A DNA stretch of 32,617 nt from a virus, in the IMG/VR virus record IMGVR_UViG_3300042691_013694, positions 1-32,617 of that record; one strand, 5' to 3'. Positions 15,022 through 18,948 of the stretch are shown here, in pieces. The position numbers and the translations under genes were made by a program. The notes under the pieces were generated by a model. It saw nothing but the letters and a program-made list of their open reading frames with translations. It had not been told where the DNA came from and searched no databases. The stretch's first letter is position 1, and the number at the start of each line of letters is the position of its first letter.

Positions 15022-15288
15022 ATGAATATTTTATCAGAAGCAAATAAGATCATTAATGAAAGATCTGAAGAAAAAGAAAGAATGTATGGTCCATTTGAAG
15101 AAGGAATGGATAGAGCAGCAAAAATCGCAAGTGGTATGACAGGAAAAGATATTAATGGTAAAGACATGTACGCATGTATGATAGCATTAAAATTATCTAG
15201 ACATAGTTATAACTATAAAGAAGACAATCTATTAGATGCTGTTGCATACATTGGATCATTAAATAATTACATAATTAAAACTAAATAA
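15022..15288 (+). CDS. DUF6378-like phage protein
   Basis: 88 residues: ANKIINERSEEKERMYGPFEEGMDRAAKIASGMTGKDINGKDMYACMIALKLSRHSYNYKEDNLLDAVAYIGSLN. The pattern (ERMYG.F, a middle helix with ALKLSR, then DN..DA.AYIG) matches the DUF6378 family. This family is widespread in phages and helical, with a conserved Asp/Glu-rich C-terminal helix reminiscent of all-alpha nucleotide pyrophosphatases. Its activity is not established. It lies just upstream of the base-modification cassette and could serve nucleotide metabolism. Confidence 0.75.
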   Translation: MNILSEANKIINERSEEKERMYGPFEEGMDRAAKIASGMTGKDINGKDMYACMIALKLSRHSYNYKEDNLLDAVAYIGSLNNYIIKTK

Positions 15289-15289
15289 C

Positions 15290-16246
15290 ATGAAAATTGG
15301 AATGATTGGTATAGTAAACAACTTAAGCACAAGGCTTAGTTCACATAATGCAGGATGGACTTACGTAAGTAGATCTGCGTTAGAAACGTATTTTAATACT
15401 AAAGTAGAAATATTAGATAATTCTATTGACTATCAAAACTATGATGTATTAATAATTAACGAAGGTGTAAATTATAAAGAAAATGTATTTAACTTTTTTG
15501 GAGGTGTACAAGATAAACAAATAGATTCTTTAACAAGATTTGCTAATTTTAAAAGAAAAGTGTACTGTGTTAATACTCATATTAATTATAACATATTAAT
15601 TGCTAAAAGAAAAGAATTAAAAGATTTGCAATTAACTTTTAATATACCAGAAGTAATTGATCTTAGTAAAGTTTCTAGCAAATTAGTATTAGGTGATAGC
15701 CACTCATTATCTGCTTATCAAAAAGGATATGCAATTAGTAGAAATGATGGAAAGACTTTGCATGGTTTTTTAAAGATAGGTATTAAAAACTTTATAGAAA
15801 AAAACGTAGACACTCTTGTTTTTTATGCTGGTAATATTGACATTCGATTCCACTTACACAAGTTTGGAAAAGATGGAATTGATAAATTATTAAAAGAATT
15901 AGAAAATCAATTGCAAGAATTAAATTTAAAATCAATAACTTTAGTTCAGCTTATTCCAATTGAAGATGAATCAAGAAAATTACCTGGAACTGGTTTATAC
16001 AAAGGCGAACCGTTTTATGGATCTAGACAAATAAGGTCAGAATTAGTTTTATATTTTAATCAAAAACTTTATGACATGTGCGCACCTTATTATAATTATA
16101 AGTGCTTATCTTGGAATTTTGACTATAACAATTTTTCTTTTGATTGCATGGAAGCAAAGCAATCTGTTCATATTAGACCTTCTTATTATTTAAACCTTAA
16201 AGACTACATAAATGGAAATGATCAACACTTTTTTGGAGTATTATAA
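15290..16246 (+). CDS. SGNH/GDSL-like protein in base-modification cassette
   Basis: 318 residues. The N-terminal half (about 1-135) looks like an alpha/beta substrate-binding domain. From about residue 139 the sequence has SGNH-type blocks: VLGDSHSLSAYQKGY (block I, GDS with the candidate nucleophile Ser), FYAGNIDIRFHLHKFG (block III, G-N), and a late SVHIRPSYY His that could complete the site. SGNH enzymes are esterases or acyltransferases. It starts the run of genes 15290-18948 that all fit base hypermodification, so it may add or trim a group on the modified base. I do not know a characterised member in this role. Confidence 0.62.
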   Translation: MKIGMIGIVNNLSTRLSSHNAGWTYVSRSALETYFNTKVEILDNSIDYQNYDVLIINEGVNYKENVFNFFGGVQDKQIDSLTRFANFKRKVYCVNTHINYNILIAKRKELKDLQLTFNIPEVIDLSKVSSKLVLGDSHSLSAYQKGYAISRNDGKTLHGFLKIGIKNFIEKNVDTLVFYAGNIDIRFHLHKFGKDGIDKLLKELENQLQELNLKSITLVQLIPIEDESRKLPGTGLYKGEPFYGSRQIRSELVLYFNQKLYDMCAPYYNYKCLSWNFDYNNFSFDCMEAKQSVHIRPSYYLNLKDYINGNDQHFFGVL

Positions 16247-16256
16247 AAAAGCAAAA

Positions 16257-17123
16257 ATGATGCAAGAATTAAAATATGAAGGTGCATCATATACAAAACA
16301 AGATATTAACGATGACCTTATTTGGCATATACCAATTTATGATGTTGTTAATAGAAAATATGCAGCATTTAGTTCTTTATTAGAAGCTATTGTTCACAAA
16401 GAAAAAGATCCTAAAGGTAATGGAATTAATTTTTTAAGAAATATACCTAAAGAAGATTTTATTGATCTTTGTTATTTATTTAGACTATGTGGTTCAGGAA
16501 TTAATTATAAACCTAAAGTAAAAATTAATGATGAACCATGGGGTACCCACGGTTTTGGTAACTTTTGGGTAGTAGAGTTACTTAGAAACGATATAAATAA
16601 TAGAAATGAATGGTTGCATTTTTTACCTTATTCTGATAAATTTTGTGATGTAAAAGGATATTTACTTCCAATGATTAAAGGTGGTTTAAAAAAATTTATT
16701 TTAAATGAATCAATATACTTAATTCATGATATTAAAAATTTTATTAAAAAATCTGGAAAGGTAGGAATAAAAGATATAGTTGATCATGGAAATAAATATC
16801 TTAAAGAAAAAGGATACATGAGACAAAATTTTGTTCTTACTGCATTTGCAATGGATTTGGCAGAATATTTCCCTGATCTAGTAGATAGAGATTCAGATGT
16901 TTACATTGGTTCTAATGCAAAAAAATGCTTGAAACTAATTTTACCAAATATGAAACACGATGAAGCGCTACGTTATCTTTGTGATATTACTGGCAATTTT
17001 TCTAAACCATATGATATGGAAGATGTTGCATGTGATTTTATAAGATACATGGACAACTTTCAATCTAATGAACATATTTTAATGAATAACAATAAAACTT
17101 ATACAAACAATGTTCATAAATAA
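16257..17123 (+). CDS. Putative base hypermodification enzyme, aGPT-Pplase-like
   Basis: 288 residues from the ATG at 16257, which follows an A-rich tract after the upstream stop (the in-frame ATG at 16212 would overlap by 35 bases). The layout resembles the alpha-glutamyl/putrescinyl thymine pyrophosphorylase (aGPT-Pplase) family, helix-hairpin-helix glycosylase-fold proteins. Key matches are HGFGNFWVVELLRND, then a long helical region with VDRDSDVYIGSNAKKCLKLI, and the C-terminal DMEDVACDFIRYM. The last resembles the family's E..LC.f.rY motif. These enzymes are thought to displace pyrophosphate from an activated hydroxymethyl base in phage DNA and attach an amino acid or amine. The family match is by eye; the neighbours strongly support it. 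Confidence 0.66.
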   Translation: MMQELKYEGASYTKQDINDDLIWHIPIYDVVNRKYAAFSSLLEAIVHKEKDPKGNGINFLRNIPKEDFIDLCYLFRLCGSGINYKPKVKINDEPWGTHGFGNFWVVELLRNDINNRNEWLHFLPYSDKFCDVKGYLLPMIKGGLKKFILNESIYLIHDIKNFIKKSGKVGIKDIVDHGNKYLKEKGYMRQNFVLTAFAMDLAEYFPDLVDRDSDVYIGSNAKKCLKLILPNMKHDEALRYLCDITGNFSKPYDMEDVACDFIRYMDNFQSNEHILMNNNKTYTNNVHK

Positions 17124-18012
17124 GCAAATAGGAAAACAAAATAATAATCTTAAAGATATGAATCTTAATGATTATTTAGATATAACTAAATCTTTTCAAT
17201 CTTCTTTTGACGATTTTGTTATAAAAGATGTTAACGGATTTAAAGTTATAGATGAATCTGTTGTATGTGCTGTAGGATATAAAGCAAGAGCAGGCGAATT
17301 TTTAATACAGCAATTAGTTGAACAAGGTATAAAAGAAGTAGTTTATGTTCAACCTAGGATTGGTTTTGCAGGAATATCTTTATCTTGGCTTTGCAAAAAA
17401 TATGGACTTGCATTAACACTTATTATGCCATCGTCAAAAGAAGTAAGCGATCATCAAGCTTTATGTATAGAATATGGTGCTAAGGTATTATTTGTAAGAA
17501 TAGCGGCAATGCCTAATGCTAATTTAATAGCAAAAAAATACGCAGAAAAAACAGGTTCATATTTTATTCCTCTTGGTTTAAATCACCCTTATGTTATAGC
17601 AGCAGGAGTAAGACTAATTCATGATTTTTTTTTAGAAATAGAAAAGCCTAAAACAATGTGGTCCGTTATATCTACAGGAGTTTTAGCAAGAAGTTTACAG
17701 ATAGCATTGCCTAATACAGAGTTTAAGGCTGTTGCTGTATCTAGGAATATACAGCAAGGTGAATTAGGGTCAGCAGAATTTTTTACTTATCATAAACCAT
17801 TTGAATCTAAATCAGATCTTATACCAATTGAATTTAACTGTGAAAATAGTTATGATGCAAAAGGTTGGGATTATATTAATAAATTTGGTAAATTTGGTGA
17901 CTGGTTCTTTAACGTAGCCGGAGAAGCAGAAAAACCTACTATTGAAAAAAGATTAATTAACTCTTATCGTGATTGGAACGACTTAAAAGACTTTACTAAC
18001 TATGGAATTTAA
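17110..18012 (+). CDS. PLP-dependent enzyme, tryptophan-synthase-beta fold
   Basis: 300 residues. Residues about 50-200 follow fold-type-II PLP enzymes (TrpB, threonine dehydratase): AVGYKARAGEFLI with Lys58 as the probable Schiff-base lysine, YVQPRIGFAGISLSWLCKKYGLALTLIMP in place of the usual SSGNHG loop, and EYGAKVLFV. VISTGVLARSLQIALP follows, then AVAVSRN. The altered loop indicates a substrate unlike free serine or threonine. Related PLP enzymes accompany aGPT-Pplase genes in hypermodified phages, where PLP enzymes decarboxylate or trim the added amino acid on DNA. Start at 17110 overlaps the previous gene by 14 bases; ATG 17158 is an alternative. Confidence 0.76.
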   Translation: MFINKQIGKQNNNLKDMNLNDYLDITKSFQSSFDDFVIKDVNGFKVIDESVVCAVGYKARAGEFLIQQLVEQGIKEVVYVQPRIGFAGISLSWLCKKYGLALTLIMPSSKEVSDHQALCIEYGAKVLFVRIAAMPNANLIAKKYAEKTGSYFIPLGLNHPYVIAAGVRLIHDFFLEIEKPKTMWSVISTGVLARSLQIALPNTEFKAVAVSRNIQQGELGSAEFFTYHKPFESKSDLIPIEFNCENSYDAKGWDYINKFGKFGDWFFNVAGEAEKPTIEKRLINSYRDWNDLKDFTNYGI

Positions 18013-18649
18013 TACAGCAAACGATGTGTTTGAATTTTACTACAAAAAAATATCAAACGAAGGAATTGATTTTAGTAATACTAAAGCATTATTTAATCAA
18101 GGTTTTACTATACTAAAACCTATGGATAATAACATAACCGCAGATTTTAGAAATTGGAATTTAAAATATGCAAAAGCAGAATACGATTGGTATACATCAG
18201 GAGACCGTAATATAAAAGCACTAGGTGACATATATGGAAAAATACCAAGTATTTGGTTAAAGATGGCAGATGAAAACGGAAATGTAAATTCTAATTACGG
18301 TTGGCAATGGAAAAGAAATAACCAATTATCAAATGTTATTAATGTTTTAAAGACAAACAAAGGATCAAGACAAGCGGCAATTAGTATTTATGACGCTAAA
18401 GAAATAAATACTTATAAATATGATACGCCTTGCACTTATGCAGTACAGTTTACGATAATTGATAATAAATTAAACATGTCTGTTCTTATGAGGTCTAATG
18501 ATCTGTGGTTTGGTTTCTGCAATGATCAATATTGTTTCTCTAGACTTCAATGGTATGTCTCTAATGAATTAGGAATAAGCATTGGTAGTTATTACCATTA
18601 TGCTCACAATTTACATATTTACAATAACTTTTTAAACATACAAAAATGA
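18002..18649 (+). CDS. Thymidylate-synthase-like dNMP hydroxymethylase
   Basis: 215 residues. Thymidylate synthase fold landmarks in order: Glu60 in KAEYDWYTSGDRNI (matches E..WF..G), Tyr99-Gly100-Trp103 in NYGWQW, nucleophile Cys144 in DTPCTYAVQF, RSND (164-167), and His205/Tyr207 in HIY. At the position of E. coli TS Asn177, eight residues after the conserved Asp, this protein has Asp175 (GFCND). T4 dCMP hydroxymethylase also has Asp there, and an Asn-to-Asp change shifts TS toward dCMP. It would make 5-hydroxymethyl-dCMP or -dUMP from methylene-tetrahydrofolate as feedstock for the cassette. It is shorter than TS (about 264 residues). Confidence 0.82.
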   Translation: MEFNTANDVFEFYYKKISNEGIDFSNTKALFNQGFTILKPMDNNITADFRNWNLKYAKAEYDWYTSGDRNIKALGDIYGKIPSIWLKMADENGNVNSNYGWQWKRNNQLSNVINVLKTNKGSRQAAISIYDAKEINTYKYDTPCTYAVQFTIIDNKLNMSVLMRSNDLWFGFCNDQYCFSRLQWYVSNELGISIGSYYHYAHNLHIYNNFLNIQK

Positions 18650-18948
18650 AATTAACAAACGAATTTGATTCAGTTAGAACATGGGCAAATAATAAAGGTA
18701 TACTTGCCAAAGGTGATCCAAAAACACAGTTCATAAAATTATTAGAAGAGGTAGGAGAATTATCTAGATCAATATTAAAAAATAACGATACAGAATTTAT
18801 AGATGCTATAGGCGATTGTGTTATTGTTTTAACAAACCTTGCTGCAATAAAAGGTTACACTATCGAAGAATGTATAAATTCCGCTTATCAAGAAATAAAA
18901 AGCAGAACAGGTAAAATGGAAAATGGAACTTTTGTAAAAGATAAATAA
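18646..18948 (+). CDS. MazG-like nucleotide pyrophosphohydrolase
   Basis: 100 residues, the size of a single MazG-type domain. The metal-binding acidic motif is KLLEEVGELS (Glu34, Glu35, Glu38), followed by FIDAIGDCVIVLTNLAA (Asp53, Asp57). These enzymes hydrolyse dNTPs to dNMP and pyrophosphate. Next to a nucleotide hydroxymethylase it would remove the unmodified dNTP or supply the dNMP substrate. The 4-base ATGA overlap with the hydroxymethylase gene indicates coupled expression. Confidence 0.9.
   Translation: MKLTNEFDSVRTWANNKGILAKGDPKTQFIKLLEEVGELSRSILKNNDTEFIDAIGDCVIVLTNLAAIKGYTIEECINSAYQEIKSRTGKMENGTFVKDK

Follow-up and report, generated by a model that had tools for sequence, protein, structure and literature searches.

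The window analysed here, an entire IMG/VR virus record of 32,617 bases with 30% G+C, encodes what is almost certainly a phage dCMP hydroxymethylase, an activity predicted from its sequence, and places it directly behind a cassette of three further genes (ORF1–ORF3). Our favoured reading, to which we give a probability of about 0.6, is that 5-hydroxymethylcytosine (5hmC) is made and then receives an amino-acid-type decoration, in a chemistry like that of phage M6 moved to cytosine. A dCMP hydroxymethylase is a known kind of enzyme; what is new is its pairing with an amino-acid-type cassette. To our knowledge, thymine is the only base of phage DNA on which hypermodifications derived from amino acids have been described, and a literature search for amino-acid-type decoration of cytosine in DNA found no case. 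The genes concerned are six ORFs (15022-18948) that lie tightly packed on one strand, and from ORF1 to the MazG gene every ORF overlaps its successor:

15022..15288, + strand: small DUF6378 protein, whose gene opens the conserved block (PF19905, E=8.8e-14)
15290..16246, + strand: ORF1, T4 beta-glucosyltransferase-like N-terminal ~100 aa plus SGNH/GDSL-fold domain (PF09198, hhalign, AlphaFold)
16212..17123, + strand: ORF2, amino-acid:DNA transferase-like (aGPT-PPlase-like) helical protein (AlphaFold, Foldseek)
17110..18012, + strand: ORF3, PLP enzyme of fold type II, a relative of M6 gp052 (PF00291, E=4.7e-12)
18002..18649, + strand: predicted dCMP 5-hydroxymethylase of the thymidylate synthase (TS) family (PF00303, E=1.7e-25; residue tests; tree)
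18521..18532, + strand: codons of N174-D175-Q176-Y177 (aat gat caa tat), D175 being the base-reading residue
18646..18948, + strand: MazG-type NTP pyrophosphohydrolase (PF03819, E=8.6e-7; phrog_715/1992)

A predicted cytosine-type hydroxymethylase

The hydroxymethylase ORF encodes 215 aa, with the RSND motif at residues 164–167 and D175 (codon 18524-18526) eight residues past D167. The original prediction had counted without gaps from RSND and had placed Asp175 where E. coli TS (EcTS) has Asn177 and the T4 enzyme has Asp. The ORF translation and phmmer alignments against PDB sequences bear this out: D175 pairs gaplessly with the Asp of T4 gp42 (D179; RSNDVVFGFRND) and of MilA (Asp186; RANDAFRGAVSD), and stands opposite the Asn of ordinary thymidylate synthases (EcTS N177; RSADVFLGVPFN, ungapped). 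The catalytic and ribose/phosphate residues C144, E60, R123, H205, and Y207 are all present, as had been said of Cys144, Glu60, His205, and Tyr207. The gapless count holds for E. coli TS and T4 gp42 and fails for the phage dUMP hydroxymethylases of SPO1, M6, ViI, and PhiW-14, in which the base-reading Asn lies nine residues past the Asp, as against eight in the window enzyme, because their loop has one extra residue.

In T4, the preference for dCMP over dUMP depends chiefly on Asp179 (PMC6400193), and MilA Asp186 is its counterpart (PMC5175136); these two residues read cytosine, and Asn occupies the position in TS and dUMP hydroxymethylase (PMC6400193, PMC5175136). In MetaGPA metaviromes, Asp at E. 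coli position 177 is a mark of modified-cytosine contigs (PMC8670742). D175 occurs in 73/73 complete distinct homologues tied to the cassette (after three incomplete sequences were left out) and in 67/67 distinct homologues not linked to it, an invariance that describes constraint within a family gathered by similarity and not an unbiased sample; many of the loci were gathered with ORF1, ORF2, or ORF3 as query, the hydroxymethylase being disregarded. At residue 174, the homologues have N, I, Y, S, or V. Asn174, the alternative base-reading residue that had been named beforehand, was set aside because of this variation next to an invariant D175.

The signature of hydroxymethylases consists of an Asp three residues before the Cys and a Ser-x-Tyr motif (D145, S94, and Y96 in T4; PMC6400193), and was scored here as Asp (or Glu) three residues ahead of the catalytic Cys plus Ser-x-Tyr. 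The window enzyme has D141, S97, and Y99, and the dCMP-hydroxymethylase signature as a whole (T4 S94, Y96, D145, C148, and D179) is complete. The four phage dUMP hydroxymethylases keep the signature Asp and Tyr, have Ala or Gly in place of Ser, and carry Asn after the catalytic Cys, where the window has Thr. Ser97, Thr145, and the Asp at D+8 of the window enzyme therefore depart from the dUMP pattern: Ser, Thr, and Asp are common to the window and T4, while the corresponding residues of SPO1, M6, ViI, and PhiW-14 are Gly or Ala, Asn, and, at D+9, Asn. These four form one clade in the tree (support 100/96), apart from the window clade; several long branches make the deep order unsafe, so only the separation of the clades was used. 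S165 of RSND is the deoxyribonucleotide-type residue, Ala replacing the serine of RS-x-D in MilA-type enzymes (PMC5175136). Given the signature, D175, the clade separation, and Ser165, the description that suits the enzyme best is dCMP hydroxymethylase. The earlier proposal of a pathway built on cytosine (5hmC) thus gains support from D175, the full T4 signature, the tree position, and comparative genomics.

Three other activities were weighed. A dUMP hydroxymethylase despite Asp175, serving ordinary thymine hypermodification, would suit the relatives of ORF2 and ORF3, which belong to thymine pathways, and the annotation of some D-type relatives as dUMP hydroxymethylases (AB434P2). It is nonetheless very unlikely, since D/N exchange at the base-reading position switches base specificity in both T4 dCH and TS (PMC6400193, PMC8670742), two more discriminating positions are T4-like, the tree puts the dUMP hydroxymethylases in a separate clade, and no 5hmdU kinase was found on the contigs searched (see below). 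We regard as highly improbable that the enzyme is a dCMP methylase yielding 5-methyl-dCMP, as in phage XP12: dCMP is methylated by TS N177D mutants according to work cited in PMC8670742, but the residues of hydroxymethylation are in place (S97/Y99, and D141 three positions ahead of the Cys), and the neighbour genes need a hydroxyl handle. MilA is among the top PDB sequence matches, and the carbamoyltransferase precedent works on RNA and DNA (PMC8670742), both of which would agree with a MilA-like CMP (ribonucleotide) hydroxymethylase feeding a small-molecule or RNA pathway; Ser165 of RSND, where MilA has Ala176, and the location of the gene in a phage operon leave this very little room.

D-type relatives occur in other phages. 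The enzyme of Agathobaculum phage AB434P2 (L248:3838-4500) is annotated as a deoxyuridylate hydroxymethyltransferase, yet has the cytosine-enzyme Asp and the CT motif; judged by these residues, the label is probably a mis-annotation. Lactobacillus phage ATCCB (L249:4980-6884) carries a D-type TS-family gene with, immediately behind it, an annotated beta-glucosyltransferase and a UDP-galactopyranose mutase, a gene order consistent with glycosylated 5hmC. Bacteroides phages BF486P2 and BF503P2 (L001, L002) have two TS-family hydroxymethylase-like genes each, all with the base-reading Asp, and one of the two (RSSDMMKLLPYD) is highly divergent and, judged by alignment, has no catalytic Glu.

Conservation of the gene cassette

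ORF1, ORF2, and ORF3 were found together on the same strand on 122 fetched loci, some of which overlap one another, and their order is kept at 119 of the 122. At 86/122 loci the hydroxymethylase lies no more than 300 bp from the cassette, and it is Asp-type every time. On most related contigs the DUF6378 gene stands 5' of the cassette and the MazG-type gene, which in the window overlaps the hydroxymethylase stop, stands 3' of the hydroxymethylase; the MazG-type protein is a candidate dCTP-pool enzyme. Two loci, L027 and L028, encode a 97% identical hydroxymethylase among the same neighbours and lack exactly ORF1–ORF3 (window 15290-18001), the gap falling between the DUF6378 gene and the hydroxymethylase. 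This clean absence suggests that the three genes come and go together, and it fits a module that acts once 5hmC has been made. One hydroxymethylase (L008:9220-9831) combines the Asn that follows the catalytic Cys in dUMP enzymes with Asp at the base-reading position; it is the sole enzyme on a cassette contig with this Asn, lies 4 kb off the cassette, and is 44% identical.

Predicted functions of ORF1–ORF3

The N-terminal ~100 residues of ORF1 align with T4 beta-glucosyltransferase (BGT) from residue 1, NFFGG included. PF09198 matched four members of the ORF1 family with E=2e-4 to 4e-2 (E=0.0019 for the window ORF1), the best score of 21.6 bits (E=2e-4, in an ORF1 relative) being below the curated cut-off of 27, and hhalign against T4 BGT residues 1-101 gave 92%, compared with at most 1.1% for 20 shuffled BGT controls. 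A search of PDB sequences with the ORF1 profile returned nothing useful, which leaves PF09198 and hhalign as the two grounds for the BGT link. The likeness is limited to this N-terminal part, and the C-terminal UDP-glucose-binding half of BGT is absent. The AlphaFold model of ORF1 (pLDDT 85) matches SGNH esterases with Z 13.3, a comparison filled by SGNH matches that speaks to this domain and not to the N-terminal one. Together with this fold, the invariant S137 (of GDS), N182 (block III), and H294 (C-terminal) place the C-terminal domain of ORF1 in the SGNH/GDSL hydrolase superfamily; Gln stands where the usual SGNH Asp is found three residues before the His.

ORF1 homologues are encoded by T4-like phages of Aeromonas and by Tenacibaculum phage PTm1. 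In Aeromonas phages 44RR and 25, the two tested, gp42 is D-type, and no match to PF09198 (beta-glucosyltransferase) was found in either. The co-occurrence with D-type gp42 ties ORF1 to 5hmC rather than 5hmU, and the homologues in 44RR and 25 are candidate 5hmC-modifying enzymes of T4-like phages without a BGT match. In phage 44RR2.8t (L112:6974-9361) the homologue is part of a 795-aa protein and in phage 25 (L113:7001-8047) a stand-alone protein of 348 aa. The ORF1-bearing phage PTm1 (L246) has a TS-like protein with RSNN for RSND and YPCID around the cysteine, so that its TS-family gene is apparently divergent or inactive. A host search for ORF1 in bacterial genomes yielded only two distant matches, both in metagenome-assembled genomes.

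ORF2 is modelled as an all-helical protein (AlphaFold, pLDDT 81). Foldseek against BFVD matched it to a viral protein labelled 'Amino acid:DNA transferase domain' (E=1.2e-9, TM 0.75), and the best PDB structure is the 5-PmdU glycinyltransferase PaMx11 gp46 (Z 9.5), with HhH DNA glycosylases close behind (Z 8.4). The PF18723 and PF18724 HMMs matched the ViI, M6, and PhiW-14 controls and did not match ORF2, and hhalign of ORF2 gave a null result with the amino-acid:DNA transferases (ADDT) and no signal with HMUDK of M6, ViI, and PhiW-14. Since the ADDT sequence models are blind to ORF2, we describe it as working like ADDT and not as a member. No close relative of ORF2 was found in named phages, and the host search of bacterial genomes returned none.

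ORF3 has an invariant K58 at the position of the PLP lysine, as aligned with PLP enzymes in the PDB. Comparison with M6 gp052 by hhalign gave 95.6% over 185 columns (E 1e-8, a single comparison). M6 gp052 is flanked by gp053 and the M6 transferase gene, gp051. An ORF3-like PLP domain lies inside a protein annotated as a DNA methyltransferase in Erythrobacter phage ZS04 (L115:2326-4764), and a similar domain stands beside ParB-like genes in Microcystis phage Mae-JY30. The original prediction assigned the neighbouring genes to thymine-hypermodification families; this holds for ORF3 through M6 gp052 and probably for ORF2 through its fold, and not for ORF1 with its BGT-like N-terminus.

Search for a kinase and a source of 5hmdU

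In M6-type pathways a DNA kinase phosphorylates 5hmdU in DNA before the amine is attached (PMC6449724). A search with the HMUDK_hel HMM and M6 gp054 matched M6 and ViI controls and found nothing in the window or in any of 13 cassette contigs (21-37 kb); these contigs may be fragmentary, and a kinase gene might sit beyond their ends. In a Walker A scan of the window, the terminase was the only sizeable ORF with the motif. On 17/17 longer contigs there is one TS-family gene per contig. Cassette contigs had no Tet/JBP match, a weak absence with no named control above the cut-off. From the single TS-family gene and the lack of a Tet/JBP match, no source of 5hmdU is seen on these contigs.

Putative pathway

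The hydroxymethylase would convert dCMP and methylene-tetrahydrofolate to 5-hydroxymethyl-dCMP, which would be phosphorylated further and incorporated into phage DNA as 5hmC. Like T4 gp56, the MazG-like protein may reduce the dCTP level. We consider the presence of 5hmC in virion DNA very likely. The upstream operon would then decorate the 5-hydroxymethyl group in DNA, and ORF1–ORF3 probably act on 5hmC. Whether the decoration is of the amino-acid type is evenly balanced. ORF1, as the third constant member of the cassette, suggests itself for the activating step; since it joins a domain resembling one that recognises 5hmC to a serine acyl-transfer fold, we propose acyl (ester) activation or O-acylation. 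It would recognise 5hmC via the BGT-like domain and activate or acylate the hydroxyl via the SGNH serine site, and we suggest only tentatively that ORF1 replaces the kinase. ORF2, going by its fold, may transfer an amino acid to the hydroxymethyl carbon, and ORF3, going by its relative in phage M6, may reshape or decarboxylate the attached amino acid. The outcome would be a cytosine of the aminoalkyl or aminoacyl type that shields phage DNA from restriction. The complete kinase-free route, in which a fusion of BGT-like and SGNH acyltransferase domains activates 5hmC, an amino acid is added and then reworked by the PLP enzyme, and an amine-bearing cytosine results, is speculative and taken as a whole rather improbable.

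The main competitor accepts the dCMP hydroxymethylase and has ORF1 merely acylate or deacylate 5hmC, with ORF2 and ORF3 serving otherwise, for example in base-specific DNA binding or small-molecule supply. The SGNH fold of ORF1 is clear, ORF1 occurs without ORF2 and ORF3 in the Aeromonas T4-like phages and PTm1, and ORF2 is without sequence-level transferase support and has a fold that also fits HhH DNA glycosylases. Set against this, ORF1, ORF2, and ORF3 almost always occur together on environmental contigs (122 loci), and ORF3 groups with M6 gp052, whose gene adjoins that of the M6 amino-acid:DNA transferase; we hold this alternative to be unlikely. Amino-acid-type decoration of 5hmC, if true, would widen known DNA chemistry, as amino-acid chemistry would then operate on cytosine by way of another activating enzyme. 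It would also account for a gene triad found at more than 100 loci of environmental phages, suggest which modification the Aeromonas T4-like phages without a beta-glucosyltransferase match may carry, and supply enzymes for 5hmC labelling. If the kinase-free route is correct, an amine-bearing cytosine would be one never before seen in DNA.

Comparison with known systems

The window enzyme belongs to the same superfamily as T4 gp42 (T4dCH) and has the equivalents of S94, Y96, D145, C148, T149, D171, D179, H216, and Y218, whereas identity is only ~35% over the aligned core in T4-like homologues. The window has ORF1–ORF3 and no alpha/beta-glucosyltransferase pair as in T4. ORF1 shares its N-terminal ~100 residues with T4 beta-glucosyltransferase and differs in that an SGNH-fold domain replaces the C-terminal UDP-sugar-binding half.

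In common with M6, ViI, and PhiW-14, the window combines a TS-family hydroxymethylase, an amino-acid:DNA-transferase-like protein, and a PLP enzyme (M6 gp051, gp052, and gp058). Unlike in these phages, the modified base is predicted to be 5hmC and not 5hmU, ORF1 is an extra gene, and the window is without a match to the P-loop kinase (M6 gp054) or HMUDK_hel (gp055); general annotation of the window recognised no M6-type radical-SAM gene. PaMx11 gp46 (PUGT, PDB 8z2n), the top solved structure for the ORF2 model, aligns over 202 residues with an rmsd of 3.8 and is only 8% identical to ORF2, and for the latter no phosphorylated substrate is expected if the kinase is truly absent. The 5hmC carbamoyltransferase system found by MetaGPA (PMC8670742) uses an unrelated decorator, and no carbamoyltransferase was recognised in the window; the two systems share an Asp177-type TS-family enzyme, a dedicated 5hmC decorator, and a nearby nucleotide pyrophosphohydrolase.
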